This document shows positions 10,720 through 37,532 of a stretch of 64,000 bases of DNA, in pieces. The stretch lies in the NCBI GenBank assembly GCA_001800285.1, contig MGVC01000008.1:1-64000 (forward strand). Direction: 5' to 3'. The notes below the pieces were generated by a model, which did no database searches, was not told the origin of the DNA, and saw only the letters and a program-made list of their open reading frames with translations. The DNA comes from Elusimicrobia bacterium RIFOXYA2_FULL_39_19 (GTDB lineage Bacteria; Elusimicrobiota; Endomicrobiia; CG1-02-37-114; XYA2-FULL-39-19). Positions within the stretch are counted from its first letter, which is position 1, and every line of letters begins with the position of its first letter. Both the position numbers and the translations under genes were made by a program.

Positions 10720-10750
10720 AAAAGTAATATAAGTAATTGTGAGGGCTAAA

Positions 10751-12209: not shown

Positions 12210-13655
12210 ATGAATACAGCAAAAAGAGGAATTAAGAATTTCGTATACTTAATATCATCAAATATTTTAACTGTATCAATAAGTATATTATCAGCGAATT
12301 TATTGGGCAGATATTTAAGCATAGAAAGTTTTGGTAGCTACAGTTATGCCCTTGCATTTGCATCAATTTTAATGGGTTTTACAGACCTTGGTATTAAAAA
12401 CATGGTCTTAAGAGAGATTTCAAAAGATAAAACCCAAACGAAAAATTACTATGTTTTTACTATATTATTTAAATTAGTGTTATATGTGATTGTGTTTGTT
12501 GCTACGTTAGCTGTAATGTATTTAAGTTTGTACAGTATTGATTTAAAATATGCAATAGTTCTTGTGTTAGTAGTAAATGCTATAGGAGGGATATCAAGGA
12601 TATTTCAGGTTGTATTAAGAGCCTATGAAAGATTTGAGTATGAATCAATTATTGGTGTATCAGGGAGTATTTTAAATGTAGGCCTGTTGTGGATACTACT
12701 ACATAGCGGTTATGATTATTTTGGGGCAATATTATCAATATTAATTACAACTTCCTTTGAGTTTATAGCCATCTATTATTTTTTCAGAAGTATTATAAAA
12801 CAAAATACGGCTGGTACGTATTTTAAAATAGATATACCATTTGCAAAAGAATACATCAAAAAATCATTACCGTTTATATTATGGTCTATATTAGGAATAC
12901 TGTATTTTAAAATAGATACAATAATACTGCAGTATTTAAAAGGATTAGAAGCAGTTGGTATTTACAGTGCTTCAAGAAGAATAATAGAAGCGTTAATATT
13001 TATTCCTGCATCTTTAAGCGGTGTGTTTTTTCCGGTGCTATCACGAAAATATAAAGAATCACAAGAAGAATTTAAAGAAATATATATGAAGGGCTTGAAA
13101 ATAGCATTTATTATTGGGTTGCCATCTTCAATAGCCTTATTTCTCTTATCTGAAAAGATTATTCCTTTAATATGGACAGCTAAATACGTAGGTTCTATTG
13201 ATTCTATGCGTATATTAGGTATATTTTATGTATTTTGTTTTTTACAGTCTATAACTTCAACAGCTTTAACAGCAATGAATAAGCAAAACATGGTAACATT
13301 CTACGCATTTATTGGGTTTTTGATAAGCATAACAGCAAACATTGTACTAATTCCAAAATACAGTGCAAGCGGCGCAAGTATAGCAACGTTGATTACTGAA
13401 GCAGGCATATTTTTATTAGGTATAATATATATATCAAAAAAGCTGTTGTTAAAAATACCGTTGTTGTTTTTTATTAAAGTAATTATTAGTGCAGTAATTA
13501 TGGGCTTGGTAATGAGATTATTAATAAATCAGAATCTATTAGTGCTTATTATTGTAGGTATTATAACATATTTATTGTTAATTAATGGCCTCAAAATAGT
13601 AACTGAAGAAGAAAAAAGAATAATAAGAAGTATATTTATAAAAAAACCAGCATAA
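12210..13655 (+). CDS. Wzx-type polysaccharide flippase (MOP superfamily)
   Basis: This is an inner-membrane flippase that moves undecaprenyl-linked repeat units to the periplasm. About 12-14 hydrophobic helices are visible over 481 residues. The start is typical of the Polysacc_synt (PF01943) family (RGIKNFVYLISSNILTVSISILSANLLGRYL, written here as its general pattern of GxxxFxxxLxxNxL then LLGRYL). ASRRIIEALIFIPASLSGVFFP and FxVLSRK-like segments recur mid-protein. Its presence beside two Wzy-fold proteins and a WbaP-like initiator supports a Wzx/Wzy-dependent pathway. It is not expected to transport the phosphonate precursors themselves. Confidence 0.9.
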   Translation: MNTAKRGIKNFVYLISSNILTVSISILSANLLGRYLSIESFGSYSYALAFASILMGFTDLGIKNMVLREISKDKTQTKNYYVFTILFKLVLYVIVFVATLAVMYLSLYSIDLKYAIVLVLVVNAIGGISRIFQVVLRAYERFEYESIIGVSGSILNVGLLWILLHSGYDYFGAILSILITTSFEFIAIYYFFRSIIKQNTAGTYFKIDIPFAKEYIKKSLPFILWSILGILYFKIDTIILQYLKGLEAVGIYSASRRIIEALIFIPASLSGVFFPVLSRKYKESQEEFKEIYMKGLKIAFIIGLPSSIALFLLSEKIIPLIWTAKYVGSIDSMRILGIFYVFCFLQSITSTALTAMNKQNMVTFYAFIGFLISITANIVLIPKYSASGASIATLITEAGIFLLGIIYISKKLLLKIPLLFFIKVIISAVIMGLVMRLLINQNLLVLIIVGIITYLLLINGLKIVTEEEKRIIRSIFIKKPA

Positions 13656-19630: not shown

Positions 19631-21118
19631 ATGAAAATATTTGAAGATATTAAAAACAACTCTAATTTCACATCAATATTTAAAGTAATAATTACAGGAT
19701 GCTTTGGATATATTATAGGCAAAGGCATAGTAAATGCTAAATACGAATATATAATTATTCCTATTATTTCTTTGATAGTATTTATTCCTTTAATTATTCT
19801 TTTTTTAATATGTTATTTTTTAGTTCAATTCGCTCCTTTACCAATATTGAAAATATTTTCTGCAGGACCAGTTGATATATACATATGGGATGTTTTTTTA
19901 ATAGTTATTACTGTAAAATTATTAATGAAGGCATATTTAAATAAAAAAGAATTATATTCTACTCCAGTAAATGCAAATATAGTAGTCTTTTTTTTATGGG
20001 GTTTAATTTGTACTTTGTATGGGTATTATAGGTTTGGAGAAGAACATTTTGTTTTTACTTTTGTATCTTACTTAAGGACTATTTCTTTAGTTTCATTGTT
20101 TTTCTTTGCAAGCAATGTTATAAATAGCAAGAAGGATATAGAGATATTCGTTAAAGCAGTTTTATTAATATTAATGTTTCAGTCTTTGTTGGGGATTGTA
20201 CAAAGATCGGGTTCTGTTTTTGGATTTAATATTTTATTTACTATTTTTAGTCCAAATAAAGGAGCTCTCGAAGGGATAGATTTTCGTAGTGTAGGAACTA
20301 TGGGTAATCCTAATAATTATGGTCAAACACTTGTTTTATTTTCATTTGCTGTAATAGTAAATTTATTAAAAACAAAAAATAATGTAAAAAGTATATTATT
20401 AGTTTTGTTTGTTTTTGTTGGAATTATTCTTTCAGGCTCAAAATCAGCGTATCTTGCTTCTTTGGTTCTTGTATTCACAGTGATATATCAAAAAAGTAAA
20501 GATAGGTTTAAAAATATTGTAATATTTATATCATTACTTATTGCAGTAGTTTATTTTTTTCAAAATTATGTTTCACATAGGATTTTTAGTGAATTTACAG
20601 TATTTGATGTAGATAATAATACAATTGATATTATGCAGACTTCAAGTACTATGAGAAGAAGCGATATTTGGATAACAAAATTGAAATTACTGTATGAAAG
20701 TCCTATTTTTGGGTTGGGTTGGTTTGGGGATTTAAAAGTACATAGCGGGGAACAGTATGGATTTGGAACATATTCACATAATCAATATATTGGAACTCTT
20801 GTGAATGTAGGTGTTCCTGGATTATTTTTATTTATAATATTGCATTATCGAATTCTTTACTTAGCCTGGAACTTGAGAAACATAACAAATGATATTTTTA
20901 TGAAAAATATAAGTATTGCATGTTTCTCTGCTCTTCTGGCATTTTATGTTACAATGATATTTAATTCGCCTTTAGAAACAGGGACTACACCTTCTGCAAT
21001 ATTTTGGGCTATGGCAGGATTTGTAATGAGTCTAAATAGGATAGCAAAAAGAGAAAAATTGGAAAATGATAAATTGTTGTTGGAGGGTAAAGATGAAAAA
21101 TATAAGTATAGTACTTAG
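19631..21118 (+). CDS. Wzy/O-antigen ligase-fold membrane protein
   Basis: This is a polytopic inner-membrane protein of 495 residues with about 10-12 helices. It carries the O-antigen polymerase/ligase pattern GTMGNPNNYGQTLVLFSF, GIILSGSKSAYLASLVLVF, FGLGWFGD and SHNQYIGTLVNVGVPGLF. It is the better candidate for the repeat-unit polymerase, since the copy at 2522 carries TPRs typical of ligase-like accessory proteins; this assignment is inference. The last 26 bp overlap the start of the following small gene, and the phosphonate module begins immediately downstream. Confidence 0.86.
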   Translation: MKIFEDIKNNSNFTSIFKVIITGCFGYIIGKGIVNAKYEYIIIPIISLIVFIPLIILFLICYFLVQFAPLPILKIFSAGPVDIYIWDVFLIVITVKLLMKAYLNKKELYSTPVNANIVVFFLWGLICTLYGYYRFGEEHFVFTFVSYLRTISLVSLFFFASNVINSKKDIEIFVKAVLLILMFQSLLGIVQRSGSVFGFNILFTIFSPNKGALEGIDFRSVGTMGNPNNYGQTLVLFSFAVIVNLLKTKNNVKSILLVLFVFVGIILSGSKSAYLASLVLVFTVIYQKSKDRFKNIVIFISLLIAVVYFFQNYVSHRIFSEFTVFDVDNNTIDIMQTSSTMRRSDIWITKLKLLYESPIFGLGWFGDLKVHSGEQYGFGTYSHNQYIGTLVNVGVPGLFLFIILHYRILYLAWNLRNITNDIFMKNISIACFSALLAFYVTMIFNSPLETGTTPSAIFWAMAGFVMSLNRIAKREKLENDKLLLEGKDEKYKYST

Positions 21119-21287
21119 TACATGTGTAATGGTTGTTTTTGTCAGCAATGCCTATGCATATATTGATCCGGGTAGCACAAGTGTGATTTTACAGGTGATT
21201 TTTGCTTTTGTCATAGGCGGATTGTTGGCTTTTAAAAATTATATTAAAAACATATTTGGACAAATATTTAAAAGGAAGCAAAAATAA
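21093..21287 (+). CDS. Small exported/membrane protein with AYIDPG motif
   Basis: This encodes 64 residues. The start is ATG 21093, because GGAGGG sits at 21082-21087 and an upstream in-frame codon would lack this site. The protein has a cleavable-looking signal ([22 protein letters not shown]), then [12 protein letters not shown], one TM helix (about 31-47) and a basic tail (FKRKQK). It overlaps the Wzy-type gene by 26 bp and shares one base (TAATG) with the PEP mutase fusion, so it is tightly coupled to the phosphonate module. I recognise the AYIDPG pattern as recurring in small proteins of surface-glycan loci but know no function. It could be a chaperone or subunit for the sulfatase-fold protein at 26020. 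Confidence 0.72.
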
Positions 21288-22588
21288 TGAAAAAAATATA
21301 TGTAGCAATGAGTGCAGATTTAATTCATCCGGGTCACATTAATATTATAGAACAAGCAAGACAGTATGGCGAAGTAACTATTGGATTGTTGACAGATAAG
21401 GCTATTGCCAGTTACAAACGCCTGCCTTTTTTGGCATATGAACAGAGAAAAGCCGTAGTAGCTAACATTAAAGGTGTAAAAGATGTTATTCCACAGGAAA
21501 CATTGGATTATGTGCCAAATTTAAAAAGAATTAGGCCGGATTTTGTAATACACGGCGATGACTGGAAAAAAGGCGTCCAAAGCGAAACAAGGCAAAGAGT
21601 AATATTGGTTTTGAAAGAATGGGGTGGAAAACTTATAGAAATTCCATACACTAAAGATATATCTTCTACAAAACTAAATAACGCAATAAAAGAAGTTGGT
21701 ACTACACCAGGGCTTAGAATGAGCAGGTTAAAGAGGCTTCTTGATGCAAAACCTATAGTTAGAATACTGGAAGTTCATAACGGACTTTCGGGTTTAATAG
21801 TAGAAAATGTAAAAATACGAAAAAATACTATTGAACAAGAGTTTGATGGTATGTGGCTTAGTAGTTTGGCTGATTCGCTGGCAAAAGGTAAACCTGATAT
21901 TGAATGTGTAGATTTAACTTCCAGGTTAAATACAATAAATGAAGTTATGGAAGTTACTACAAAGCCGATTATTTTTGATGGCGATACAGGTGGTATTCCG
22001 GAGCATTTTGTGTTTTATGTAAAAACATTAGAAAGGCTTGGGGTATCAGCGATAATAATAGAAGATAAAACCGGGTTAAAAAAGAATTCGTTATTTGGTA
22101 CTGATGTTTTTCAGGTTCAGGATTCAATAAAAAGTTTTTCTTACAAAATATCAAAAGGTAAAAAAGCGCAGATTACAAATGATTTTATGATTATAGCAAG
22201 AATTGAAAGCATGATATTGGGAAAAGGCGTAAATGATGCTATTAATAGAGCAAAAGCATATATTGATGCAGGGGCAGATGGGATAATGATACACAGCAGC
22301 AAAAAAGATCCGGACGAAATATTTAATTTTTGTGATAAATATTCAAAAATCAGAGGAAGGGTTCCGCTGGTTGCTGTTCCTACAACATATTGTGCAATCA
22401 AGGAAAACAGTCTTATTAATGCAGGAGTTAATATTGTAATATACGGAAATCATTTGTTAAGAAGTGCTTATCCTGCAATGGTAAAAACAGCAGAGTCAAT
22501 TTTAACACACAGCAGAAGTTATGAGGCATCATCAAAATATTGTACTCCGGTTAATGAAATTATTACATTGATACCAGGAAGTAAATAG
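21287..22588 (+). CDS. Bifunctional cytidylyltransferase-phosphoenolpyruvate mutase (Fom1-like layout)
   Basis: The protein has 433 residues in two domains. Residues 1-135 form a nucleotidyltransferase of the glycerol-3-phosphate cytidylyltransferase type, with HPGH (14-17) and the late ISST (125-128) signature. Residues about 150-433 are PEP mutase: DGDTGG (231-236) and the diagnostic [10 protein letters not shown] (259-268), whose pattern EDKxxxxxNS separates true mutases from isocitrate lyase relatives. PEP mutase rearranges phosphoenolpyruvate to phosphonopyruvate, forming the C-P bond. The fused domain in Fom1 and in PntC-type enzymes makes a CMP-phosphonate. Both active sites look intact. 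The decarboxylase follows after 9 bp, giving the expected pathway order. Confidence 0.93.
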
Positions 22589-22597
22589 GATAAGAAA

Positions 22598-23728
22598 ATG
22601 CTAAATCCGGAATTTTTTTATAGATTGCTTATAAATAAAGATATTAGTTTTTACTGCGGTGTACCGGATTCACTTTTGAAAGATTTTCTTTCATATTTAG
22701 CTGTTAATGTTGACCCTGAAAATAATATTATTACCGCAAATGAAGGAAACGCAATAGCTCTATCTGCAGGGTATTATCTGGCTACAGGTAACCCAGGGCT
22801 TGTTTATATGCAGAATTCAGGACTTGGTAATTGTGTAAACCCTTTGCTTTCGTTAACAGACCCGGAAGTTTACAGTATTCCATCTTTGCTATTAATAGGA
22901 TGGAGAGGAGAACCCGGGAAAAAGGATGAACCTCAGCATGTTAAGCAGGGAAAGGTAACAAATAATCTGTTAAAAGCTATGAAAATACCCTTTAGCATTT
23001 TACCCGATAAGATTAAAGAAGCAGAAAAAACAGTAAATACGGTGTTGAAATATTTAAACAAAGAAAAGGCTCCTTACGCATTAATTGTAAAAAAAGGGAC
23101 ATTTGAAAGTTATAAATCAAAGAATCTCTTGAAAACAGTTTATGAACTAACCCGTGAAGACACTTTAAAAATAATTGTAGATAAACTATCTTCTAAAGAT
23201 ATGGTAGTAGCTACAACAGGGGAAACATCCAGGGAACTTTTTGAATATAGAGATAAATTAAATCAAGGCCATAATAATGATTTTCTTACGGTAGGTTCTA
23301 TGGGGCATTCATCACATATTGCTCTGGGAATTGCAAAAGCAAAAAAGAATAAAAATGTTTACTGTATAGATGGTGATGGTTCACTGCTTATGCATATGGG
23401 TGCCCTGGCAGTTATTGGTTCACAAAATCCTTCAAATTTTAAGCACATTGTTATAAATAATGGTGCTCATTGTTCAGTAGGCGGGCAATTAACCTGCGGA
23501 TTTAAAATAGATATCCCTAAAATTGCTAAAGCCTGCGGTTATAACCATGTTTTTAGGGTTAAGACAAAAAAAGAACTTGTTGAGAAAATATTAATGATAA
23601 ATAAATTAGAAGGCCCTTCGTTAATAGAAGTCAGGGTTAAAATTGAAACAAGAAAAGACCTGGGAAGGCCGACAATAACACCAAGAGATTGTAAAAAAGC
23701 GTTTATGAATAAATTGCGCGGTAAATAA
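22598..23728 (+). CDS. Phosphonopyruvate decarboxylase (TPP-dependent)
   Basis: This enzyme converts phosphonopyruvate to phosphonoacetaldehyde, the step that pulls the unfavourable mutase equilibrium forward. The 376-residue length is right for the aepY/Ppd/Fom2 family. Glu49 in ITANEGNAIALSAGY is the likely TPP-activating glutamate. The TPP/Mg motif GDGS (259-262) is followed by INNGAHCSVGGQ (287-291 for NNGAH). The motif NSGLGNCVNPLLSL is a family hallmark. The gene lies directly behind the mutase fusion and overlaps the next gene by 1 bp. The three-gene order matches phosphonate operons. Confidence 0.93.
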   Translation: MLNPEFFYRLLINKDISFYCGVPDSLLKDFLSYLAVNVDPENNIITANEGNAIALSAGYYLATGNPGLVYMQNSGLGNCVNPLLSLTDPEVYSIPSLLLIGWRGEPGKKDEPQHVKQGKVTNNLLKAMKIPFSILPDKIKEAEKTVNTVLKYLNKEKAPYALIVKKGTFESYKSKNLLKTVYELTREDTLKIIVDKLSSKDMVVATTGETSRELFEYRDKLNQGHNNDFLTVGSMGHSSHIALGIAKAKKNKNVYCIDGDGSLLMHMGALAVIGSQNPSNFKHIVINNGAHCSVGGQLTCGFKIDIPKIAKACGYNHVFRVKTKKELVEKILMINKLEGPSLIEVRVKIETRKDLGRPTITPRDCKKAFMNKLRGK

Positions 23729-24861
23729 TGAACCAAATAGTATTTTCAGGTTATAAATCCTACGAAAATCTTCATAACATACTAAAAAACTGCCAACCAA
23801 ACAAAATATTGCTTGTAACGGGAAAGCAATCCTATTCATTATCCGGAGCAAAGAAATTAATAGGCAAAATAACGGATAAGTACAACACTGTAAGGTTCTG
23901 TAGTTTTCATTCCAATCCAGAAATTAATGACATAAAAAAAGGTATTTCAACATTTAAAAAAGAAGGCTGTGATTTTATTATCGGTATTGGCGGGGGAAGC
24001 GTAATTGATGTTGCAAAATCAATAGCGCTATTAGGCGGAAATAATAATGATATAGCAGGCATTCTTAAAGGCAAAGTGAAATCCGGAAAAAGGCTGATAA
24101 AAACTGTTATTATACCTACAACAGCAGGGACAGGAAGTGAATCAACTCATTTTTCAGTAATATATTTGGCAGGGGAAAAGTATTCTTTAGCGGATAGTTC
24201 TATGTTACCGGATTTCATAATATTAGATCCGGCATTTTTAGAAAATGTTCCGCCAAATGTTGCATCTTCAAGCGCAATGGATGCTCTTTGCCAGGGTATA
24301 GAATCATATTGGTCTGTAGAATCAACAAACGAGTCAAGAAACTATAGCAGAATGGCTATTAAACTTGTTTTGGCTAATATTGTAAAAAATGTAAATAATC
24401 CGGATAAAGTATCACGGATAAACATGCTAAGAGCAGCCAATTACTCAGGAAAAGCAATAAACATTGCAAAAACAACCGCGGCCCATTCAATTTCATATAC
24501 CATAACTTCTATGTTTAAAATACAACATGGGCATGCAGTTGCATTAATATTGCCAAAACTTATAGAAGTAAATTATAGTATCAATAAAGATTGTTTAAAT
24601 GATAAAAGGGGAATAGCATTTACAAATAAAAGAATGAATGAATTACTGGATATATTAAATGTTGTTTCCCCTGCTGAAGCAAAAAATAAAATAACGAATA
24701 TTATGAAATCAATTGGATTAAAAACCCGTCTTTTTGAATTAGGAATAAAAAAAAGCAATATAAATCAAATAATCAAAGGATATAATCCAGAAAGAATGAA
24801 GAATAATCCCAGAACACTCACAAAAAACGATATAAAAGGTATTTTAGAGGAAATCTTATAA
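23728..24861 (+). CDS. Iron-type alcohol dehydrogenase, probable phosphonoacetaldehyde reductase
   Basis: This is a group III (Fe-ADH) dehydrogenase of 377 residues. The NAD(P) loop is GIGGGSVIDVAKS, the substrate region is IPTTAGTGSESTHFSV, and metal ligands lie in DALCQGIES, AHSISY and HGHAVAL. In known pathways (FomC, PhpC, DhpG) a homologue reduces phosphonoacetaldehyde to 2-hydroxyethylphosphonate. Placement immediately after the decarboxylase gives the same assignment here. No 2-aminoethylphosphonate transaminase is present in the module, which supports the hydroxy rather than the amino product. The specificity is inferred from position. Confidence 0.82.
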   Translation: MNQIVFSGYKSYENLHNILKNCQPNKILLVTGKQSYSLSGAKKLIGKITDKYNTVRFCSFHSNPEINDIKKGISTFKKEGCDFIIGIGGGSVIDVAKSIALLGGNNNDIAGILKGKVKSGKRLIKTVIIPTTAGTGSESTHFSVIYLAGEKYSLADSSMLPDFIILDPAFLENVPPNVASSSAMDALCQGIESYWSVESTNESRNYSRMAIKLVLANIVKNVNNPDKVSRINMLRAANYSGKAINIAKTTAAHSISYTITSMFKIQHGHAVALILPKLIEVNYSINKDCLNDKRGIAFTNKRMNELLDILNVVSPAEAKNKITNIMKSIGLKTRLFELGIKKSNINQIIKGYNPERMKNNPRTLTKNDIKGILEEIL

Positions 24862-24863
24862 AA

Positions 24864-26012
24864 ATGTTAAGAGAAATATTAAGTTTATATAAAATATTTA
24901 AAACTATTCCTGAAAATGAAAGACAGGTAGTATTTTATTCTGAAAACAGAAATTATTTTGTCAATTATGAGGGTATTATAAACGAATTATTAACAAACAC
25001 AGATGAATGTATGTGTTATATAACATCTGATGCCAATGATCCGGCTTTTAAAATAAAAAACAAAAGATTCAAAGTATTTTATATTAAAGATTTGCTTGTA
25101 TTATTTATGTCATTTATAAAATGCAGAGTTCTTATAATGACTACCCCGGATTTAAATAAGTATCATATTAAACGTTCATCAGACCCAACTGTTCACTACA
25201 CATATGTGTTCCATTCTATGGTAAGTACTCATATGATGTATTTAAAGGAAGCATTTGATTATTATGACTCCATTATGTGCGTGGGCCCCTATCAGAAAAA
25301 TGAAATAAGAAAAAATGAAGAATTGAACAAATTGAACAATAAAATGCTTGTAGAATGCGGGTATTACAGATTAGAGAGAATATATAGGAAATTTAAGGAA
25401 TATAAGCAGGATAATACAAAAGATACAACCGTACTAATAGCACCTTCATGGGGAAACAAAAATATACTTGAATCCTGCGGTGAAGAGCTGGTTAATATAC
25501 TCCTTGATAAAGGTTGCAAGGTAATAATAAGGCCTCATCCGGAAACTGTAAAAAGAAACCATGAATTGATAAACAATTTAAATGAAAAGTATAAAAACAA
25601 TATATCTTTTACACTTGAAACTACCGTAGAATCTGATGATTCATTAATAAAGGCAGATGTGCTAATATGCGATTGTTCAGGAGTTGCATTGGAATATGCA
25701 TTTGGCACGGAAAGGCCTGTATTATTTATAGATGTACCTTATAAAATAAGAAATGAGGAATATAACAAATATGGCATTGAACCTTTTGAGCTGGGGATTA
25801 GGGATAAAATAGGTGTAATAGTAAAATCTGAAGGATTAGAGAACATCACTACGGTTATAGAAAACTTAAAAGCAGATAAAGATAAGTACAAAGAAAAAAT
25901 AACAACATTACGTGAAACAAATATATATAATTTCAATAATTCTTCGAAAATAGCTGTAAAACACATAAATAATTTACTAAAAGAGAAGAGAACAATAGAA
26001 AGGAAAGGTTAG
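24864..26012 (+). CDS. TagB/TagF-like CDP-alcohol phosphotransferase, candidate phosphonyl transferase
   Basis: This 382-residue protein resembles the CDP-glycerol glycerophosphotransferase family (PF04464): YVFHSMVSTH, SIMCVGPYQKNE, VLIAPSWGNKNIL, VIIRPHPETVK and ADVLICDCSGVALEYAF all fit the GT-B-like core. Family members transfer an alcohol phosphate from a CDP-alcohol to a membrane-bound glycan. Because the neighbouring fusion enzyme should make a CMP-activated phosphonate and no CDP-glycerol synthase stands alone here, the likely substrate is CMP-hydroxyethylphosphonate. That is inference. The gap to the preceding gene is 2 bp. Confidence 0.75.
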   Translation: MLREILSLYKIFKTIPENERQVVFYSENRNYFVNYEGIINELLTNTDECMCYITSDANDPAFKIKNKRFKVFYIKDLLVLFMSFIKCRVLIMTTPDLNKYHIKRSSDPTVHYTYVFHSMVSTHMMYLKEAFDYYDSIMCVGPYQKNEIRKNEELNKLNNKMLVECGYYRLERIYRKFKEYKQDNTKDTTVLIAPSWGNKNILESCGEELVNILLDKGCKVIIRPHPETVKRNHELINNLNEKYKNNISFTLETTVESDDSLIKADVLICDCSGVALEYAFGTERPVLFIDVPYKIRNEEYNKYGIEPFELGIRDKIGVIVKSEGLENITTVIENLKADKDKYKEKITTLRETNIYNFNNSSKIAVKHINNLLKEKRTIERKG

Positions 26013-26019
26013 TAATAAA

Positions 26020-27468
26020 ATGTTATTCCAGCAGATTTATTATGCTTTTGTTATGACGATGATGTTTTTTTCAAAGCATATATTCACTATGAGAGATCCG
26101 GAAAATTATTATTATCATAATCAGGCATTGAGTAATTATATTTTCCTTATAATATTAAATATTATTCTATTTTTGTTGATAATTACAACTATGAAACTAG
26201 CAGAGAGATATTTAAATAAATATTATGACAAAATATTATTTATTATATTCTTTTTGTCTCTTTATAATTTTCTTGATTATATAAGAGATATAATTTTCAG
26301 ACCTCTTCCAGATATGTCGTTCAACGGAAGAATAGCATACCTGGTAATTTTTACATTGTATATCCCCATGTTAATTATAATGCCTTTAATATTCAAAAAA
26401 CTAAATTATGAAAAAATACACAAAAGTGCTATATCCTTATTTACTTTGATAGCTATATTGGCTGTATATTACATAATACCAAAAGAATTCAGTGTAACAC
26501 ATATAGATAAAGAATTAAAGCCTGGGAAAAGAAATAATATTCATTTGATTCTATTTGATGGTGTTGCATATGTCCCTATATACAACGGAGATAAAATAAG
26601 CGAAGAATTTCCTAATATAGCGGAATTAGCCAAAAATAGCTGTGTGTTTTATAATGGATATTCACCAGGTACGCAAACATTTACTTCAATGGGCCGTTTA
26701 ACAACAGGCATCAACTACAAGTATTTCAAGGCCCATTATTGCGGTTTATACGGAAAGATGAATGATAATGATGAATGGAACAAGGTTGATGTAAGTAAAT
26801 CCCTGTTTAAAGTATCAAAAGATTATGGATATAATAATGTTTTATTGGGTGAATATCATCAATACGGAACATTGTTTGAAAAGTACCTAGATTATGCAAG
26901 GGTATATTCTGTGGACTCAAAGTATAACTACATGTTGGGCAAACTGATCAATTACCTGTTCTTAAGAGGGGACATTTATGCAAGGGATACATTTTATGCT
27001 TTGTTTAAAGGATATATAGAAAAAGCTAACGAAAACAAGTCAAATACTTTATTTTTTACGCATTTTAATACTCCTCATGTACCGTATATATTTAATAAAA
27101 ATGGATTTAAAAACGAATATCATAAAATGCTATTAAAAGGAACCACTTATAAAGAAGAGGAAAGATACCTTGATCAATTAAGGTATGTGGATGTTAAGGT
27201 AGGGGAGATAATAAAAACATTAAAAGAAAACGGGTCTTATGAAGACAGTCTGATAATTCTTACTACTGACCATCCTTGGCCTTGGATTTATAGAAAGGAA
27301 TCAGAGAGAATACCTTTTATAATAAAAAAACCTAATCAAAAAAAAGGTTTGAAAATATACAATAAAAGTTATACTTTCAATTCAAACAAAATGCTTAAAA
27401 AATATTATAAAACAAATAAAATAGATTTGAATATATTGTCTGAATATCCCGGAGAATTTGTAAAGTAG
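26020..27468 (+). CDS. Sulfatase/LtaS-fold membrane phosphotransferase-like protein
   Basis: Four or five N-terminal TM helices (about residues 38-60, 71-92, 104-126, 136-152) precede a periplasmic alkaline-phosphatase-superfamily domain. The likely metal ligand is Asp180 (LILFDG). Thr220 in GTQTFTSMGRLTTG occupies the nucleophile position ten residues before the TG, as in LTA synthase and EptA-type enzymes. HFNTPHVPY and LTTDHPWPW supply further ligands. Thr rather than Cys/Ser at the nucleophile fits a phospho- or phosphonotransferase better than a sulfatase. It may transfer or remove a phosphoryl/phosphonyl group on the exported glycan. The length of 482 residues is compact. Confidence 0.8.
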   Translation: MLFQQIYYAFVMTMMFFSKHIFTMRDPENYYYHNQALSNYIFLIILNIILFLLIITTMKLAERYLNKYYDKILFIIFFLSLYNFLDYIRDIIFRPLPDMSFNGRIAYLVIFTLYIPMLIIMPLIFKKLNYEKIHKSAISLFTLIAILAVYYIIPKEFSVTHIDKELKPGKRNNIHLILFDGVAYVPIYNGDKISEEFPNIAELAKNSCVFYNGYSPGTQTFTSMGRLTTGINYKYFKAHYCGLYGKMNDNDEWNKVDVSKSLFKVSKDYGYNNVLLGEYHQYGTLFEKYLDYARVYSVDSKYNYMLGKLINYLFLRGDIYARDTFYALFKGYIEKANENKSNTLFFTHFNTPHVPYIFNKNGFKNEYHKMLLKGTTYKEEERYLDQLRYVDVKVGEIIKTLKENGSYEDSLIILTTDHPWPWIYRKESERIPFIIKKPNQKKGLKIYNKSYTFNSNKMLKKYYKTNKIDLNILSEYPGEFVK

Positions 27469-27487: not shown

Positions 27488-28867
27488 ATGAAAGTAGCTC
27501 TTGTATACCCTCCATTAATAAACAGAACTGATTCTTATGATTTTTATAAAACACCTTTGCTTTCAATGGGTTACCTTTCTGGTTTTCTGAAATCAAAAGG
27601 AATAGAAGTTACTGTTTTTGACTACCGCAGCGATAATTTGGATATTTCAGGAACTGTTTCAAAAATAAAAGAATTCAATCCGGATTTAATAGGTCTAACA
27701 GCAAAAACAAATGAAATTACTGATGCTTCTGGTTTTGCAGATATGTTAAAAAAAGAATTGCCATCTGTTCCTATAGTCGTTGGTGGACCTCATACAACAG
27801 CCATGACCAAAGAAACCATGGAATCATTTCAGTCGTTTGATTTTTCTGTGTTTGGCGAAGGGGAGATAACTCTTTATGAATTATGTGAGAAAATACAAAA
27901 TGACGAGCATAATTACGAAAACATTCAGGGCCTAGCATTCAGGAAGAATGGTTCAATAATAATCAATCAGCCGAGGCCGTTTAATGAAGCTATAGATTTA
28001 TTACCTTTTCCTGAGTGGGGACTATGGCAGAAGAAGCATGATAATTATTGTGTAATGGGTTCAAGAGGATGCCCTTTTCAATGTATATTTTGTATGCGAG
28101 TACTTGGTAAAAAGGTAAGGTTTAGGTCCCCGGAAAATATTGTAGGTGAAATAGAATATTTGATAAATAAGTTTGATGTAAAATCAATAGATTTTGAAGA
28201 TGAAACTCTGAATATAAGAAAAGACTTTGTAAATAAATTCTGCCAGTTAATTATTGATAAGCAAATTGAAAAAAAGATTTATTGGACGTCAAATCTGAGG
28301 GCAGATTTAACTGATATAGAAACACTGAAAATCATGAAAAGAGCCGGCTGTAGTAAGGTTGCTATAGGTATTGAGTCAGGCAATGCGGAAATGCTGAAAA
28401 CAATAGGAAAGGGTATAAAAAAAGAACAGATAGAAAATGTAGTAAAAATGGCTAAAAAAGTAGGATTAAAAACAACAGGTTTATTCATCCTCGGCCATCC
28501 AAATGAAACCATAAAAACAATAAAAGATACAATAAATTATGCTGCAAAACTTAATACTTCGCAGGTTGCCTTTGGCATCATGGTACCGTATCCAGGAACA
28601 AAGATATATGAAATGGCAAAAAAAAATGAAGGCGGATACAGGTTGATATCAAATGATTGGAAAAATTATGATAAATATATGGGAAATTCTGTTGAATTTG
28701 TTAACATATCAAGAAAAAAAATTGAATATTATCAATTTTATGCTTATCTGAAGTTTTATGTATGGAATTTTAAAATAATTGAAATGATAAAATTTGTTTT
28801 ACTGCACAGAAAATCTGCCGTAGAATTAATTAAGAGAATAACCAATGTATTCGTTAGAAATAATTAA
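27488..28867 (+). CDS. Cobalamin-binding radical SAM protein (class B type) no. 3
   Basis: The B12-binding domain (MKVALVYPPL; PLLSMGYLSGFLKSKG; LIGLTAKTNE; IVVGGPHTTAM; VFGEGEITLYEL) is followed by the barrel with SRGCPFQCIFC (Cys195, Cys199, Cys202), IGIESGNAEMLKTIGKG and MVPYPGTKIYEMA. It directly follows the phosphonate module. Class B radical SAM enzymes include Fom3, which methylates cytidylyl-hydroxyethylphosphonate, and P-methylases, so action on a phosphonate intermediate is conceivable. The motifs alone do not separate these from sugar or lipid methylases. It overlaps the next gene by 23 bp. Confidence 0.87.
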   Translation: MKVALVYPPLINRTDSYDFYKTPLLSMGYLSGFLKSKGIEVTVFDYRSDNLDISGTVSKIKEFNPDLIGLTAKTNEITDASGFADMLKKELPSVPIVVGGPHTTAMTKETMESFQSFDFSVFGEGEITLYELCEKIQNDEHNYENIQGLAFRKNGSIIINQPRPFNEAIDLLPFPEWGLWQKKHDNYCVMGSRGCPFQCIFCMRVLGKKVRFRSPENIVGEIEYLINKFDVKSIDFEDETLNIRKDFVNKFCQLIIDKQIEKKIYWTSNLRADLTDIETLKIMKRAGCSKVAIGIESGNAEMLKTIGKGIKKEQIENVVKMAKKVGLKTTGLFILGHPNETIKTIKDTINYAAKLNTSQVAFGIMVPYPGTKIYEMAKKNEGGYRLISNDWKNYDKYMGNSVEFVNISRKKIEYYQFYAYLKFYVWNFKIIEMIKFVLLHRKSAVELIKRITNVFVRNN

Positions 28868-31103
28868 GGACTTAAATAAAATAAAAGAAATGCCTAATAA
28901 ATGGGATTCGCTTATTGAAAAAAGTGGGTCTTTACCGTTGTTTCTTTCTTATGACTGGATTATTAATTGGTTAAACGAGATGGGAGCAGATGTTAAACCG
29001 TATGTAGTTATAGTAAAAGAATCAGAAAAAATAACAGGTATTTTACCTCTTGTAATAAAAAAAAGCGTGTTTATTAATAAACTTGAATTTATAGGAAGTA
29101 GTGAATCAGATTATCTGGATTTTATAATTGAAAAAGGCAAAGAAAAAACTGTAATTCAATATGTTTTAAATGAATTACAGAAGGATAACACTTGGGATAT
29201 ATGTGAATTAGTGAATTTAAGAGAAGATTCCTGCAATATTGAAATATTGGAAGAGTTGCTGAAAACAGGAGGCTATGCATCAAAAAAAATAAAAAACTGG
29301 GATGCAGAATGCCCATATTTAAACATAGAAGGTTCCTGGGATGATTATTTAAATAAAAAGAAAAAGAAAGCTAGGTATAACCTTAAAAGAGAAGTAAGGC
29401 TTTTAGAGGAGCTTGGGAATCTTGAGTTTAAAAAAATAACTGAAATAAAAGAAATAGAAAGAATATTGCCGGAATTATTTGAAATATATAATAATAGATG
29501 GAAAAGGTATTACACGGGAAGCAGTTTGAATGATTATAAAAAAAGGAGATTTTATAGATTATTAGCTGTTAAATATCAGCAGAAAAATTGGCTGAGCCTG
29601 TCAGTAATGAAATTAAACGGTAAAATAGTATCTTTCGCTTTATCATTTATATATAAAAACAAGTATTATTTTTATATGCCGTCTTACGATGTAAAATATT
29701 CAAAATATTCTCCAGGCACAATAATGGTGTATTACTTGCTAAAAGAAGCCCATGATAACAAAATTGAAGTATATGACTTTATGAAAGGCAACGAAACTTA
29801 TAAAAAAAGATGGGCAAATGATTTTATAAGATGTTTTAATATATCTTTTGCAAACAAATGTGTTAAAAGCAGAATGTTATTTAGAATTTATATATTTAGC
29901 ATGAATGTTAAGCAGGGATTAAGAAAAGCTGTTGTTGCAAGGCACATATTAGGGAATATTTTAAATATAATAAATGAAATAAAAACAAGATATTTCAGTT
30001 ATGTTCCTCCTGAAGCGGTTTGGCATATTAGTTTAAAAGAAAAAAAAGCAGAGAAGAACACAATAAGAGAAATATATAAATATAATAAGGTGTTAAGATA
30101 CGGTAGAGAAGCATTGCTGAAATATTTTGACAGTGTAAATATAAATATCGGAGATGAGATGCTGCTACCATCATATTTGTGTGGCTCAATAACGCATGAG
30201 ATAAAAAAAAGAGGGATAGTAGTGGAATATTATAAGATAAAAGATAATTTTATGGTCGATATAGAAGATATAAAATTAAAAATAAATCATAAAAAAGCAT
30301 TACTGGTGATTCATTATTTTGGGTTTCCACAAAACATTGAAAGCATAAAGGAAATATGCAGAAACAATAATGTGTTATTGATAGAAGATTGCGCACATTC
30401 ATTGTTTTCAAAATATAATGATAGATATCTGGGTACATTTGGAGATTCAGGTATATTCAGCTTAAGAAAAACATTGCCCGTTTATGAGGGGAGTATTTTA
30501 TTGGAAAATAACAAATCTGTGTTTAAAGATGAAGATAGTACAGTCACGAGAAAATACGCTAGCGTAAACAAGGTTTCTATGTTTTCAATGATCACTAAAT
30601 ATTTTGAATATTGCACGGGCATAAGCCCAAGGCCTATATTTTTAAAAAATGAAAATATGAGGAGAAAATATATAATGAATAATGAAAATATTCAAATAGA
30701 AGACAATAGAGGAATATCAGGTTTTACACAAATAATATTAGACAAAGTAGATGCCGTAAAAGTGATAAACAAGAGGCGTGAAAACTATATGTTTTATCTT
30801 CAGAACATAATAAAAACAGATAAAATAATAATTCCTTTTAACGAATTGCCTGAAGGAATATGCCCTATAGGTTTTCCTGTGTTAGCAGAAAACCGCAACA
30901 CAATAAGAAAAAAGCTTTTGAATTATGGTATAAATTTAAGAACATACTGGGATTATTTGCCGGAAGATATAAAAGAAGATGAATTCCCTGTGTCCCATAA
31001 TTTGTCCAAGAAAATAATTATTCTCCCTGTACATCAAGATTTAAAGTTTAAACACATACAAAAGGTAATTGAAAAAATTAATAATGAAATATTTAATTGT
31101 TAA
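28845..31103 (+). CDS. Fusion of FemAB/CelD-type GNAT and DegT-type PLP aminotransferase
   Basis: This protein of 752 residues has two enzyme halves. Residues about 1-340 form a FemAB-like/GNAT_6 acyltransferase (GSLPLFLSYDWIINWL start, KKKKKARYNLKRE, then YDFMKGNETYKKRWAND as the characteristic end). Residues about 400-752 are a DegT/DnrJ/EryC1 family PLP protein: LVIHYFGFPQNI, IEDCAHS with Asp515 pairing to the PLP nitrogen, GTFGDSGIFSLRK with probable Schiff-base Lys542, and a C-terminal LRTYWDYLP. An aminotransferase plus an N-acyltransferase would together install an acylated amino sugar. I know no characterised enzyme with this order. It overlaps both neighbours. Confidence 0.82.
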   Translation: MYSLEIIKDLNKIKEMPNKWDSLIEKSGSLPLFLSYDWIINWLNEMGADVKPYVVIVKESEKITGILPLVIKKSVFINKLEFIGSSESDYLDFIIEKGKEKTVIQYVLNELQKDNTWDICELVNLREDSCNIEILEELLKTGGYASKKIKNWDAECPYLNIEGSWDDYLNKKKKKARYNLKREVRLLEELGNLEFKKITEIKEIERILPELFEIYNNRWKRYYTGSSLNDYKKRRFYRLLAVKYQQKNWLSLSVMKLNGKIVSFALSFIYKNKYYFYMPSYDVKYSKYSPGTIMVYYLLKEAHDNKIEVYDFMKGNETYKKRWANDFIRCFNISFANKCVKSRMLFRIYIFSMNVKQGLRKAVVARHILGNILNIINEIKTRYFSYVPPEAVWHISLKEKKAEKNTIREIYKYNKVLRYGREALLKYFDSVNINIGDEMLLPSYLCGSITHEIKKRGIVVEYYKIKDNFMVDIEDIKLKINHKKALLVIHYFGFPQNIESIKEICRNNNVLLIEDCAHSLFSKYNDRYLGTFGDSGIFSLRKTLPVYEGSILLENNKSVFKDEDSTVTRKYASVNKVSMFSMITKYFEYCTGISPRPIFLKNENMRRKYIMNNENIQIEDNRGISGFTQIILDKVDAVKVINKRRENYMFYLQNIIKTDKIIIPFNELPEGICPIGFPVLAENRNTIRKKLLNYGINLRTYWDYLPEDIKEDEFPVSHNLSKKIIILPVHQDLKFKHIQKVIEKINNEIFNC

Positions 31104-31956
31104 TGCTGATGAATTTGGGCTTTCTGAAGGTGTAAATAAAGGCATTATAGAAGCCTATAAAAATGGCATAGTAAAAAGTACAACTCTGGTTGTATGCGGA
31201 AAAGGATATTCACAGGCAGTAGAGTATTTAAAAAATAACAATGGATTAGCTGCAGGGGTGCATTTAACTCTTACTGACGGAATGCCGATTGCGTCAAATG
31301 ATAAAGTAATTACTCTTGTGAATAAAGAAAATAAATTTTATAAAAGAGATGAATTTATAAAAAAAATGATGTTAGGAAAAATATCAACAGAAGAAATAAA
31401 GACAGAATTTGTTGCACAGATAGATAAAACGAACGCATCCGGTATATCTTTATCACATCTGGATAGCCATCAAAGCACATATATACATCCAAAAATATTT
31501 CCAATTGTTATTGAAATAGCAAAAAAATATGGTCTGCCCATTAGATTTCCAATTGATCCTGTTTTTTTAAATAAGAAACCGTCTTTTAAATTTAAAACAA
31601 ACATTCATATAGCAAAAAAAATACTTTTGAAGGTATTTTCAATTAAACAGAAGAATCAAATGAGGGTTTTGGGAGTAAAAACATCAGATCATTTCAGGAC
31701 CTATTTTGATTTTCATGCAGATAAAAGAGATTATGAAGAAGCATTTATAAGACTTTTAAGTTCATTAAATGAAGGTGTGACTGAGGTAATGACACATCCG
31801 GGATATTGGGATGCAGATTTGTGTGAATGGGTTTACGGAGAAGAAGATAAACTGCTTAGAGAAAATGAATTAAAAGTATTAGTTTCCGACAAGATAAAAA
31901 ACTATATAAAAGATAATAGTATTGAAGTAATAAATTACAAAAAGGTGAAAATATGA
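31084..31956 (+). CDS. YdjC/ChbG-family carbohydrate deacetylase
   Basis: This metal-dependent deacetylase-like protein has 290 residues. MKYLIVNADEFGLSEGVNKGI is the family start (shown by NADEFG, metal Asp) and fixes ATG 31084 over an upstream TTG at 31069. GVHLTLTDG, LDSHQSTYIHP and EVMTHPGYWD carry the usual His and Asp ligands. Known members deacetylate N-acetylated oligosaccharides such as chitobiose, and HpnK acts in hopanoid synthesis. Beside the aminotransferase/acyltransferase fusion it may remove an N- or O-acetyl group from the repeat unit. It overlaps the fusion gene by 20 bp and the next gene by 4 bp. Confidence 0.86.
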   Translation: MKYLIVNADEFGLSEGVNKGIIEAYKNGIVKSTTLVVCGKGYSQAVEYLKNNNGLAAGVHLTLTDGMPIASNDKVITLVNKENKFYKRDEFIKKMMLGKISTEEIKTEFVAQIDKTNASGISLSHLDSHQSTYIHPKIFPIVIEIAKKYGLPIRFPIDPVFLNKKPSFKFKTNIHIAKKILLKVFSIKQKNQMRVLGVKTSDHFRTYFDFHADKRDYEEAFIRLLSSLNEGVTEVMTHPGYWDADLCEWVYGEEDKLLRENELKVLVSDKIKNYIKDNSIEVINYKKVKI

Positions 31957-33443
31957 AAATACTGCTTGTAAACCCGCCATTTAGAAGAATGACTGGTATG
32001 GCGGATTTTTATTATCCTGCAGGACTGGCATCATTAGCTGCTGTTTGCAAGGATTTAGGCCACGAAGTCATAGTATATGATGTTGACCGTTCAAGTAAAA
32101 AACAAGGCAGTTTAAGTTATGGAACAGAATATTACCAAATGGAAAATTATTTAAAAGTTATAAATGACAGTTATAATCCGTTATGGATAGAAATAAGAGA
32201 ATTCATTTCCAGGTATAATCCGGATATAGTAGGTATAAGAGCGCAGACCACTACTTATATTTCAGCTGCAAAAACAGCAGAAAATACAAAGATGGCTAAT
32301 AGGAATATTAAAGTAATAATGGGAGGCCCACACCCTACAATCCGTCCTTTACAAGTGTTAGAAGACGAAAATGTTGATTTTGTGGTAACAGGTGAAGGTG
32401 AAATTACTTTAAGGGAGTTACTGGATGATATTAAAGTAAATAAAAATGAATATAAAAGTATTCCTGGATTGTATTATAAAGTAAACGGAAAAATTGAAAA
32501 TACCGGAATAAGGAAGTTTGTTGAAAACGCAGACTTACTGCCTTTACCAGACCGGGCTTCGTTGAAATATTTAAAGAATTATTCCTCAGAAGACCTTGGT
32601 GTGATAATGGCTTCAAGAGGATGTCCGTTTTCTTGTTCTTATTGTTTCAGTATGTGGGGTAAAAAAGTAAGGTACAGAACAGTTAAAAATGTCCTTGAAG
32701 AAGTAAAACAGGTTAAAAAGAACTATAGTACATATCAGTTTTCATTTAAAGACGATACTTTTACATTAAATAAAAAGTGGATAAATGAGTTTTGCGGGGA
32801 ATTGCTTTCAAAAAATATAAAAATTAACTGGGATTGCACTACCCGGGCAGACACATTAGATGATGACCTTTTAAGAATAATGAAAAAGTCAGGATGTAAT
32901 GTTATAAAACTTGGGGTGGAAAGCGGGAGTAAAAAAATTCTAGAAGATTTAAAAAAAGGTGAAACAATGGATGAAATTCGCCAAACAGCCAAACTATTGA
33001 ATAAACACAATATATATTGGAGTGCCTATTTCATTTTTGGTTTGCCCCAGGAAACCGAAAAAGATATTGAATTAACTTGTGATTTCATGAGAGAATTAAA
33101 CCCGCCGTATGCATCTATAGGGCCATATAAGGCTTTTCCTAACACAAATCTGTTTAATCAGGGTGTAGAAATGGGTATATTAAAGGAAGATATGCAAAGA
33201 GAAGAATATTTTAAGATTAATCCTCTTGATTATTACTACAAAAACCCTGAAAAACGAACAATTACAATAAATAAAGAACAATTTGAAAAAATATCAGAAA
33301 AAGTTCTAGGAATATTTGATTCTAACAACAAAAGATTTTATTCTTTGTTTAGAAGAGGCTTAGCAAGAAAAGATGTATATATAAATAACCCGTTGATGCT
33401 AAAAAGTGATTTTGGAAAGCTTATAAGCTGGATGAAAAAATGA
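31953..33443 (+). CDS. Cobalamin-binding radical SAM protein (class B type) no. 4
   Basis: The B12-binding domain (MKILLVNPPF; GLASLAAVCKDLGHEV; VGIRAQTTTYISAA; VIMGGPHPTIRP; VVTGEGEITLREL) is followed by the radical SAM barrel with SRGCPFSCSYC (Cys224, Cys228, Cys231), LGVESGSKKILEDLKKG and FGLPQETEKDIEL. This is the HpnJ/BchE-like layout, in which the enzyme acts on lipids, sugars or tetrapyrroles. It sits between the deacetylase and two glycosyltransferases, each overlapping by 4 bp, so it is co-translated with glycan genes. Confidence 0.88.
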   Translation: MKILLVNPPFRRMTGMADFYYPAGLASLAAVCKDLGHEVIVYDVDRSSKKQGSLSYGTEYYQMENYLKVINDSYNPLWIEIREFISRYNPDIVGIRAQTTTYISAAKTAENTKMANRNIKVIMGGPHPTIRPLQVLEDENVDFVVTGEGEITLRELLDDIKVNKNEYKSIPGLYYKVNGKIENTGIRKFVENADLLPLPDRASLKYLKNYSSEDLGVIMASRGCPFSCSYCFSMWGKKVRYRTVKNVLEEVKQVKKNYSTYQFSFKDDTFTLNKKWINEFCGELLSKNIKINWDCTTRADTLDDDLLRIMKKSGCNVIKLGVESGSKKILEDLKKGETMDEIRQTAKLLNKHNIYWSAYFIFGLPQETEKDIELTCDFMRELNPPYASIGPYKAFPNTNLFNQGVEMGILKEDMQREEYFKINPLDYYYKNPEKRTITINKEQFEKISEKVLGIFDSNNKRFYSLFRRGLARKDVYINNPLMLKSDFGKLISWMKK

Positions 33444-35938: not shown

Positions 35939-37315
35939 ATGTTGAAATATATTTTCAGAAAAATATCAAGAAGAAAACTACTATTAGTGTTTATTGATGC
36001 AGCGGTGCTTACAGCTGCAATAAACATTTCGTCTTATTTATGGGTAGGCAGTTCAAATTATTTGCAGTTTTATATATATCAAATAATAGGTACAATTATA
36101 ATCCAGATTTTAGTATTAATGATAAGCGGCCTTTATGAAATAAACAATGATAATGCAAAAACAGGCATTATCTTTAAAATTACAGGTTCTGTAATAGTTG
36201 CTTCCGCAGCAATATTGATGATTTTCTTTTTCTTTCCCGAACTAAAATCTCCCAGCAGGCCGATATTCCTTATTAATATATTTGTAAAAACGGTTTTATT
36301 ATATACCGGCAGAAGATTCTATGCAAAATTATTTGGCATTACTATTAGTAATAATGTTCTTATATTGGGTACTACCGCTATTGCAAGGGCTTTTGTAAGA
36401 GAGTTCAAAGAACTGACTCCAACTGGCTATAAAATTATTGGTTTTATAGATGATAAACACGGCACAGAAACACACTTTGAAGGTTATGAAATCTTTGGCA
36501 ATACAGGCAGATTAAAGGAAATAGTAAAAGAAAAGAAGATAGACCTTGTAATAGTGTCGTTAAAGCACCATGAAAGAAATGAAGAGTTTATTAAAAATCT
36601 TATTTCCTGCATGCATTCAGGTATAGAGGTAGAAGATATTTCGCTTTTATATGAAGAAATAACCGGCAGAATACCTTACGAACATTTAAACGATGCCTGG
36701 TTTTTAGATACACGTTTTGGTGCAGGTACAATTTACAGAAGATACTTTAAAAAAATACTGGGCAAAGCGATAGCAGCTGTTATTTTGCTTATTACTTCAC
36801 CAGTTTTCATTATCGCCCTTTTGTATGAATTAGTATTTTCGGGTAAAGTATTTTACACTCAGGAAAGATTAGGAAAATTCGGCAAAAAGTTTAAGATAAT
36901 AAAATTCAGAACCATGAAACATAAAGCTGAGGAAGAAACAGGGCCTGTCTGGGTAAAAAAGGATGACCCCAGAATTACCCGTTTCGGCAGATTTCTGCGT
37001 ATTACCCGCATAGATGAACTGCCTCAGCTGATAAATGTACTAAAAGGGGACATGAGCCTGGTAGGCCCGCGACCTGAAAGGGAACACTTTATTAGAAAAT
37101 TCCAGGAAGAAATACCCTTTTACACATACAGGCTTACCGCTTTTCCGGGCATTACCGGCTGGGCACAGATAAACTGGGGTTATGACGCCAGCGTAGAAGA
37201 TGTAAAAAGAAAACTTGAATATGATTTATACTACATTAAAAATAAATCTTTTGTACTTGACCTGGTAATTATTTTAAGAACTCTTCAAACGGTTTTCACC
37301 GCAAAAGGTAGATAA
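35939..37315 (+). CDS. Undecaprenyl-phosphate sugar-1-phosphate transferase (WbaP/WcaJ type)
   Basis: This is the polyprenyl-phosphate glycosyl-1-phosphate transferase expected to begin repeat-unit synthesis on undecaprenyl phosphate. Four N-terminal TM helices (about residues 14-125) are followed by a CoA-binding-like Rossmann segment (VLILGTTAIARAFVREF, IIGFIDDKHG). A further TM (about 281-300) leads into the bacterial sugar transferase catalytic domain (IKFRTMK, DELPQLINVLKGDMSLVGPRPE, FPGITGWAQINWG, LEYDLYYI). The 458-residue length is standard. As the last gene of the run, it completes the Wzx/Wzy-type pathway. It ends shortly before the accessory patch at 37.3 kb. Confidence 0.93.
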   Translation: MLKYIFRKISRRKLLLVFIDAAVLTAAINISSYLWVGSSNYLQFYIYQIIGTIIIQILVLMISGLYEINNDNAKTGIIFKITGSVIVASAAILMIFFFFPELKSPSRPIFLINIFVKTVLLYTGRRFYAKLFGITISNNVLILGTTAIARAFVREFKELTPTGYKIIGFIDDKHGTETHFEGYEIFGNTGRLKEIVKEKKIDLVIVSLKHHERNEEFIKNLISCMHSGIEVEDISLLYEEITGRIPYEHLNDAWFLDTRFGAGTIYRRYFKKILGKAIAAVILLITSPVFIIALLYELVFSGKVFYTQERLGKFGKKFKIIKFRTMKHKAEEETGPVWVKKDDPRITRFGRFLRITRIDELPQLINVLKGDMSLVGPRPEREHFIRKFQEEIPFYTYRLTAFPGITGWAQINWGYDASVEDVKRKLEYDLYYIKNKSFVLDLVIILRTLQTVFTAKGR

Positions 37316-37373: not shown

Positions 37374-37532
37374 ATGACCTACCCGGAAGATGCCATTTAT
37401 AAAACCATCCTTGTAGTTGACGATAAAAAAACAATTCATTATACAATAGAACAATTATTTCTCAATGCCTACAATGTTGTTAATAATTATCTATTGCGAT
37501 TAGTTAACATATATGTTAATATAATGCCATGA
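37374..37532 (+). pseudogene. Truncated response-regulator receiver remnant
   Basis: A 52-codon ORF whose centre, YKTILVVDDKKTIHYTIEQLF followed by YNVV, resembles the first strand, acidic pair and first helix of a CheY-like receiver domain. The phosphoacceptor Asp, the remaining strands and any output domain are missing. It stops 4 bp into the start of the antitoxin gene (ATGA). The fragment may be what is left of a regulator interrupted when the AbiE module entered. It is too short for firm family assignment. Confidence 0.5.
37504..37519. promoter_or_regulatory. Perfect 16-bp palindrome, candidate AbiEi operator
   Basis: The 16-mer TTAACATATATGTTAA is its own reverse complement and ends 9 bp before the antitoxin ATG. 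AbiEi antitoxins are known to autorepress by binding inverted repeats in their promoter. A weak -35 (TTGCGA, 37494-37499) and -10 (TAATAT, 37517-37522) bracket the palindrome. With no Shine-Dalgarno sequence visible, the mRNA might be leaderless. The promoter is inference; the palindrome is directly visible. Confidence 0.6.

Follow-up and report, generated by a model that had tools for sequence, protein, structure and literature searches.

A gene for a protein resembling TagF, a CDP-glycerol glycerophosphotransferase, stands at the end of a run of phosphonate genes in an Elusimicrobia genome, which raises the question of what such an enzyme would transfer and to which acceptor. The window considered here is the whole stretch of 64,000 nucleotides that was analysed. 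An earlier, sequence-only reading of this DNA had proposed a CMP-phosphonate as the donor and a glycan as the acceptor, and had cast the protein as a teichoic-acid polymerase in phosphonate form.

The TagF-like protein and its cassette

The gene lies at 24864-26012 on the forward strand and is an intact open reading frame with an ATG start, encoding 382 amino acids before its stop. It is the single PF04464 gene of the 3.09-Mb genome, which is 97.8% complete. PF04464 (Glyphos_transf) is the sole Pfam family recognised in the protein (31.3 bits against a cut-off of 22.1, E 1.4e-07), with no NCBIfam matches. The CDP-glycerol phosphotransferase core expected from the letters is present, as the motifs FHSM (H117), RPHPE (R223-E227) and CDCSG (C269-G273). 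Searches of the PDB by sequence, using either the protein or a 13-row profile as the query, returned no matches and a fold comparison was therefore used. The AlphaFold2 model, from an alignment of only 3 sequences, has a mean pLDDT of 82.2 and a pTM of 0.82, and its top match among 350,542 PDB chains is TagF (3l7l/3l7k; for 3l7l, E 6.6e-13, TM 0.63 and a global rmsd of 6.1 Å, as expected for two hinged domains). The polymerase domains of the capsule enzymes Cps3D and Bcs3 are likewise near the top. The protein is thus modelled as a GT-B fold with TagF as its nearest kin, a match that speaks to the overall fold and not to the detail of the pocket. The protein is a single catalytic domain, and a check for a tandem polymerase architecture was negative. 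No confirmed relative was found in viral contigs.

The catalytic histidines of TagF are H444 and H584 (PMC5974469; their catalytic role is also described in PMC11666461). By alignment H117 and H225 are the equivalents of both, and they are invariant in 15 aligned homologues. Among the conserved donor residues described in PMC11666461, H-G-T-P and S-S...D are absent in their canonical form (HGTP and SSxxxD), the window protein having HSMV and SGVALE. Across its clade the first histidine and the arginine of RxH are kept, in place of G-T-P there is S, A or G and then M, I, V or T, and S-S varies at its second position. Judged on these residues, the change of motif is consistent with a shift in donor recognition, short of proof of which donor is used.

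The TagF-like gene is the last of four in a cassette with gaps of a few bases, all on the forward strand. The first gene (21287-22588) encodes a cytidylyltransferase-PEP mutase fusion (PF01467-PF13714; TIGR02320 388.5 bits, cut-off 319.6), in which residues 4-137 are a Fom1-type cytidylyltransferase with HPGH intact and residues 148-432 are a PEP mutase with a 10-residue motif. The HxGH and EDKxxxxxNS motifs (14 residues) are both carried. It is followed by a phosphonopyruvate decarboxylase (22598-23728; TIGR03297 489 bits, cut-off 312.5) and an iron-containing alcohol dehydrogenase (Fe-ADH; 23728-24861), which scores below all NCBIfam equivalog cut-offs and would be a phosphonoacetaldehyde reductase yielding 2-hydroxyethylphosphonate (HEP). 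The presumed maker of a CMP-phosphonate is in the same cassette as the TagF-like gene, as had been noted. Adjoining the cassette on the same strand is a gene (26020-27468) for a membrane-anchored protein of the alkaline phosphatase superfamily (PF00884), with a hydrophobic N-terminal region and, on inspection by eye, no cysteine sulfatase motif. The cassette has 31.0% G+C, compared with about 40% in the 40 kb of contig downstream of the window, suggesting that it was acquired by transfer; the closest relative found is in a Desulfobacterales metagenome-assembled genome (MAG). A promoter and terminator scan of the cassette gave no signal above shuffled sequences.

The cassette is embedded in a Wzx/Wzy-type polysaccharide locus that has Wzz, Wzx and Wzy-like proteins, glycosyltransferases and an initiating transferase. 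A Wzx-type flippase (PF01943) is encoded at 12210-13655, a Wzy_C or O-antigen ligase-like protein at 19631-21118, directly upstream of the cassette, and an initiating sugar-phosphate transferase (Bac_transf, PF02397) at 35939-37315, all on the forward strand. The LicD-type transferase family PF04991 is absent from the 30 window proteins scanned. Four genes for B12-binding radical SAM proteins are also found in the locus (4390-5919, 10739-12196, 27488-28867 and 31953-33443), and it is possible that these methylate CMP-HEP or the glycan. At 28845-31103 a 752-aa protein joins a GNAT (Acetyltransf_6) domain to a DegT-type aminotransferase region; its gene overlaps that of a YdjC-like deacetylase, and the locus ends with an AbiEi/AbiEii-like toxin-antitoxin pair (37529-38967).

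Linkage to PEP mutase in other genomes

A scan of 84,980 species genomes, of a kind that finds close relatives only, identified two relatives of the TagF-like protein, both beside a PEP mutase. In the Desulfobacterales MAG (L056) the four genes are in the same order (66, 53, 51 and 56% identity). In an Omnitrophota MAG (L057) the homologue is accompanied by a LicC-like gene, a PEP mutase-LicC fusion, an Fe-ADH and a PF00884 protein. Within the class of L056, 4 of 390 genomes have a homologue: that of L056 itself, G360 (L108), where the four-gene order is found again (65, 51, 31 and 35% identity), G419 (L106), with an aminoethyl-type set, and G644 (L107), where the locus ends at a contig edge. 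All four close homologues with full context (L056, L057, L106 and L108) have a PEP mutase on the same contig, which is the co-occurrence that had been anticipated. A strict association of close homologues with CDP-glycerol synthases instead of PEP mutase was looked for and not found.

The two genes also occur together more broadly, in tests that ignore genome relatedness and whose rows are not independent. In the class of the window (96 genomes) the TagF-like protein is in 12 and PEP mutase in 12, with 8 shared (p 1.6e-6); collapsed to genera, the protein is in 6 of 7 genera with PEP mutase compared with 7 of 29 (p 1e-4). In the phylum (320 genomes) PF04464 is present in 9 of the 12 PEP mutase genomes and in 26 genomes overall (Fisher 7e-9). 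TIGR02320 matches of 115-141 bits were not counted as PEP mutase. These figures are inflated because both PEP mutase and PF04464 favour surface-polysaccharide islands. The conservation of the order across distant genomes, together with the spacing of 1.0-5.4 kb, is stronger evidence than the co-occurrence statistics.

In a tree of 37 rows the window protein falls in a supported clade of 16 rows (98/93). PEP mutase is in the genome for 12 of these, on the same contig in 11 and 1.0-5.4 kb away where measured. Two further rows end at contig edges (G132 and G644) and two carry another cytidylyltransferase instead. In G055 and its near copies G036 and G063 there is a TagD-like cytidylyltransferase (106 bits, cut-off 165) with a class-V aminotransferase and no PEP mutase; G132 has the same set, on a contig (L160) other than that of its TagF-like gene. 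G177 likewise lacks PEP mutase and has a CobD-like PLP domain joined to a LicC-like one. Since G055 is nested beside the PEP mutase-linked G077 (98/97), its set looks, on the tree, like a later donor swap. The G055-type donor may carry the phosphate of a two-carbon amino alcohol, for example ethanolamine phosphate, which is similar in shape to 2-aminoethylphosphonate (AEP). It is clear that the whole clade is not exclusive to phosphonates, and CDP-glycerol may be the donor in its members that lack PEP mutase. PEP mutase is found beside further lineages of PF04464 too (G058, G321 and G038, the last having a divergent PF04464 protein immediately upstream of PEP mutase), so PF04464 proteins may have been recruited to phosphonate clusters more than once.

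Several other arrangements were seen around these genes. The variant at L034, L035, L066 and L160 (with L064), free of PEP mutase, has a TagF-like protein, a YidC-like partner, a class-V aminotransferase and a TagD-like cytidylyltransferase below the cut-off; a CDP-ethanolamine-type donor is possible there. At L062:11100-12896, next to the TagF-like gene, a 599-aa protein combines a LicC-like nucleotidyltransferase and a CobD-like PLP enzyme and may make a CDP-amino alcohol. Proteins of 820-880 aa with YidC-like N-terminal parts are encoded beside the TagF-like gene at L038:3812-6280, L062:7135-9753 and L043:12646-15162. The idea that these neighbours are copies of TagF was rejected, as the N-terminal part alone matches YidC and the C-terminal region is alkaline phosphatase-like by eye, judged in L038 only. 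G060 has a PEP mutase and its contig (L041) stops inside the YidC-like partner. In G087, on a contig of 4 kb, a LicC-PhnW fusion adjoins a TagF-like gene that is interrupted by a stop. A 997-aa protein at L046:6098-9088 joins LicC-like, PhnW and PEP mutase regions and is truncated by the end of the contig.

The donor and the probable reaction

The cytidylyltransferase domain of the window fusion is 69.4% identical to PDB entry 5x3d over 134 residues (208.8 bits), and scores lower elsewhere (53 bits to ethanolamine-phosphate cytidylyltransferase and 41 bits to TagD, 1coz). This entry, named only 'phosphoenolpyruvate phosphomutase' in the PDB table, is taken here to be the cytidylyltransferase domain of Fom1. 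The Fom1 domain makes CMP-HEP from CTP and HEP (PMC6697681, PMC8158854). Among 12 fusions compared for this motif and for identity to 5x3d, the six from clusters with Fe-ADH keep HPGH and are 63-69% identical, the four beside a LicC-PhnW fusion have HPGV or HPGI, the second histidine being lost, and the two with separate PhnW and LicC keep HDGH or HEGH at 34% identity. Because the Fe-ADH clusters keep HPGH and the LicC-PhnW clusters lose it, the intact Fom1-type domain accompanies the HEP branch, with a LicC-type enzyme present in the aminoethyl branch. The proposal of a CMP-phosphonate donor is well supported by this kinship, taken with the PEP mutase linkage of the close homologues.

The fused cytidylyltransferase had been described as the only visible donor maker, with no CDP-glycerol or CDP-ribitol synthase alongside, and this holds for the whole genome at the sensitivity used. 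The six PF01467 matches of the genome, read from sequence, are CoaD, NadD, RibF, two of HldE type and the fusion itself. The sole TIGR01518 (TagD) match is the fusion, at 53.7 bits against a cut-off of 165.4, there is a single genuine, ordinary IspD, and no other CDP-polyol maker was found. Nor was any TagD over the cut-off present in 18 examined genomes that carry the homologue. The absence of TagD alone says little, because true TagD is rare in the phylum (4 of 320 genomes). In two relatives outside the clade, G016 and G144, an IspD/TarI-type gene is adjacent to PF04464; as a positive control, this indicates that the neighbouring gene can report the donor maker.

The TagF-like protein probably carries out the final transfer in a phosphonate-tailoring operon, adding one HEP per site to the glycan of the locus. 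The PEP mutase domain would generate phosphonopyruvate, which the decarboxylase would convert to phosphonoacetaldehyde. Reduction of this by Fe-ADH would give HEP, for activation to CMP-HEP by the Fom1-type domain. In the last step the TagF-like enzyme would attach the hydroxyethylphosphonyl group of CMP-HEP to a hydroxyl of a lipid-linked glycan in the cytoplasm and set CMP free, with the role of H117 and H225 modelled on the two histidines of TagF acting on CDP-glycerol. The likeliest acceptor, by analogy with the HEP glycan esters of marine organic matter (PMC9381506), is the lipid-linked repeat unit of the surrounding Wzx/Wzy-type polysaccharide.

Single decoration is likelier than chain growth, since the AEP of the sister clusters ends in an amine and offers no hydroxyl for elongation. 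Chain growth is the point on which the sequence-only reading is not supported. In a polymerase, HEP units from CMP-HEP would be chained through the free 2-hydroxyl into a C-P-bonded, teichoic acid-like poly(hydroxyethylphosphonate). HEP does have this free hydroxyl, TagF of the same fold polymerises, and TagF-like domains polymerise with CDP-glycerol (PMC5974469); however, homologues of the same clade occur with PhnW and a LicC-type cytidylyltransferase, pointing to CMP-AEP. With the window protein a single domain as well, polymerisation is considered very improbable. At 382 aa it is also closer in size to the single-addition PF04464 enzymes of the TagB/CpsA type.

An ordinary CDP-alcohol donor (CDP-glycerol, CDP-ribitol or CDP-ethanolamine) could instead be made elsewhere, the TagF-like gene and the phosphonate genes then being no more than neighbours in an island. 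Polysaccharide islands often hold both kinds of gene, and other cytidylyltransferases serve the clade members that lack PEP mutase, but the genome offers neither TagD nor a second IspD, the gene order and short spacing are conserved between two phyla and the donor motif is altered, making this unlikely. A similarly low probability is given to CMP-2-hydroxypropylphosphonate as the donor, which would follow if one of the B12-radical SAM proteins (27488-28867 or 31953-33443) methylated CMP-HEP before transfer in the manner of Fom3. The substrate of Fom3 is cytidylylated HEP (PMC8158854) and these two genes are downstream of the cassette. Both proteins, however, are below all NCBIfam cut-offs and are best matched to HpnJ/BchE, and among the ORFs scanned no B12-radical SAM protein was recognised beside the cassette in L056 or L108.

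Somewhat less doubtful, though still unlikely, is a route in which the TagF-like protein first attaches the phosphonate to a lipid, from which the PF00884 membrane protein transfers it to the final glycan in the periplasm, as enzymes of the EptA/LtaS type do with phospholipid head groups. Pfam places a PF00884 protein next to the TagF-like gene in four loci (the window, L056, L057 and L106), and the C-terminal region of the YidC-like partner of other clusters appears by eye to be of the same superfamily. This recurrence suggests a periplasmic second step, and in the preferred reading of direct transfer to the lipid-linked glycan the 26020-27468 protein would likewise have a later periplasmic role. 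Against the lipid route, the partners are divergent (25-27% identity), the structural model of the 26020-27468 protein is too poor to use (AlphaFold pLDDT 45.9) and hydrolase roles are equally possible.

Known systems and significance

The window protein resembles the CDP-glycerol glycerophosphotransferases TagF, TagB and CpsA in its family, GT-B fold, two histidines, probable CMP-linked donor and tie to a cytidylyltransferase gene. It differs in the replacement of HGTP, the linkage to PEP mutase, its separate supported clade and a genome in which no CDP-glycerol or CDP-ribitol maker is found. The catalytic histidines and the fold of the TagF-like domain are shared with Cps3D, Cps7D and Bcs3 (PMC5974469, PMC11666461), but those enzymes are polymerases of several domains that use CDP-glycerol or CDP-ribitol, whereas this is a single-domain protein beside phosphonate genes. 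The fusion has the domain order and HPGH of Fom1 from fosfomycin biosynthesis, as well as the closely related cytidylyltransferase, yet its setting is a polysaccharide locus that has a glycan-type transferase and lacks recognised fosfomycin genes. The Pnt pathway (PntC with a LicD-like transferase; Rice et al. 2019, PMC6697681) has the same CMP-phosphonate logic, with PEP mutase joined to a cytidylyltransferase, by fusion or by linkage, in a surface-glycan locus. In contrast, the window transferase belongs to PF04464 instead of LicD and its donor would be CMP-HEP instead of CMP-AEP.

The coupling of PEP mutase to cytidylyltransferases was established by Rice et al., who pointed to LicD-like or glycosyl transferases; a TagF-type transferase is not named there (PMC6697681). 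A full-text search of the open literature, with subscription papers mostly outside its scope, gave no paper in which PF04464 is connected with PEP mutase. The fold and the chemistry are known and, as far as could be checked, the phosphonate-associated branch of PF04464 is new.

Most bacterial phosphonate capacity is thought to be directed to the cell surface, with cytidylyl activation established and the later tailoring steps 'enigmatic' (PMC6697681). In the sea, polysaccharide esters of HEP and methylphosphonate account for a notable share of the high-molecular-weight dissolved phosphorus (PMC9381506). The TagF-like enzyme would probably fill the missing last step of the phosphonate decoration pathway. 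The compact four-gene cassette, with a characterised precedent for each donor step, makes this final step directly testable in vitro. Linkage to PF04464 is also a marker separating glycan-directed from small-molecule phosphonate clusters. If the polymerase reading were true, some bacteria would have a backbone of phosphonate units instead of phosphate diesters.
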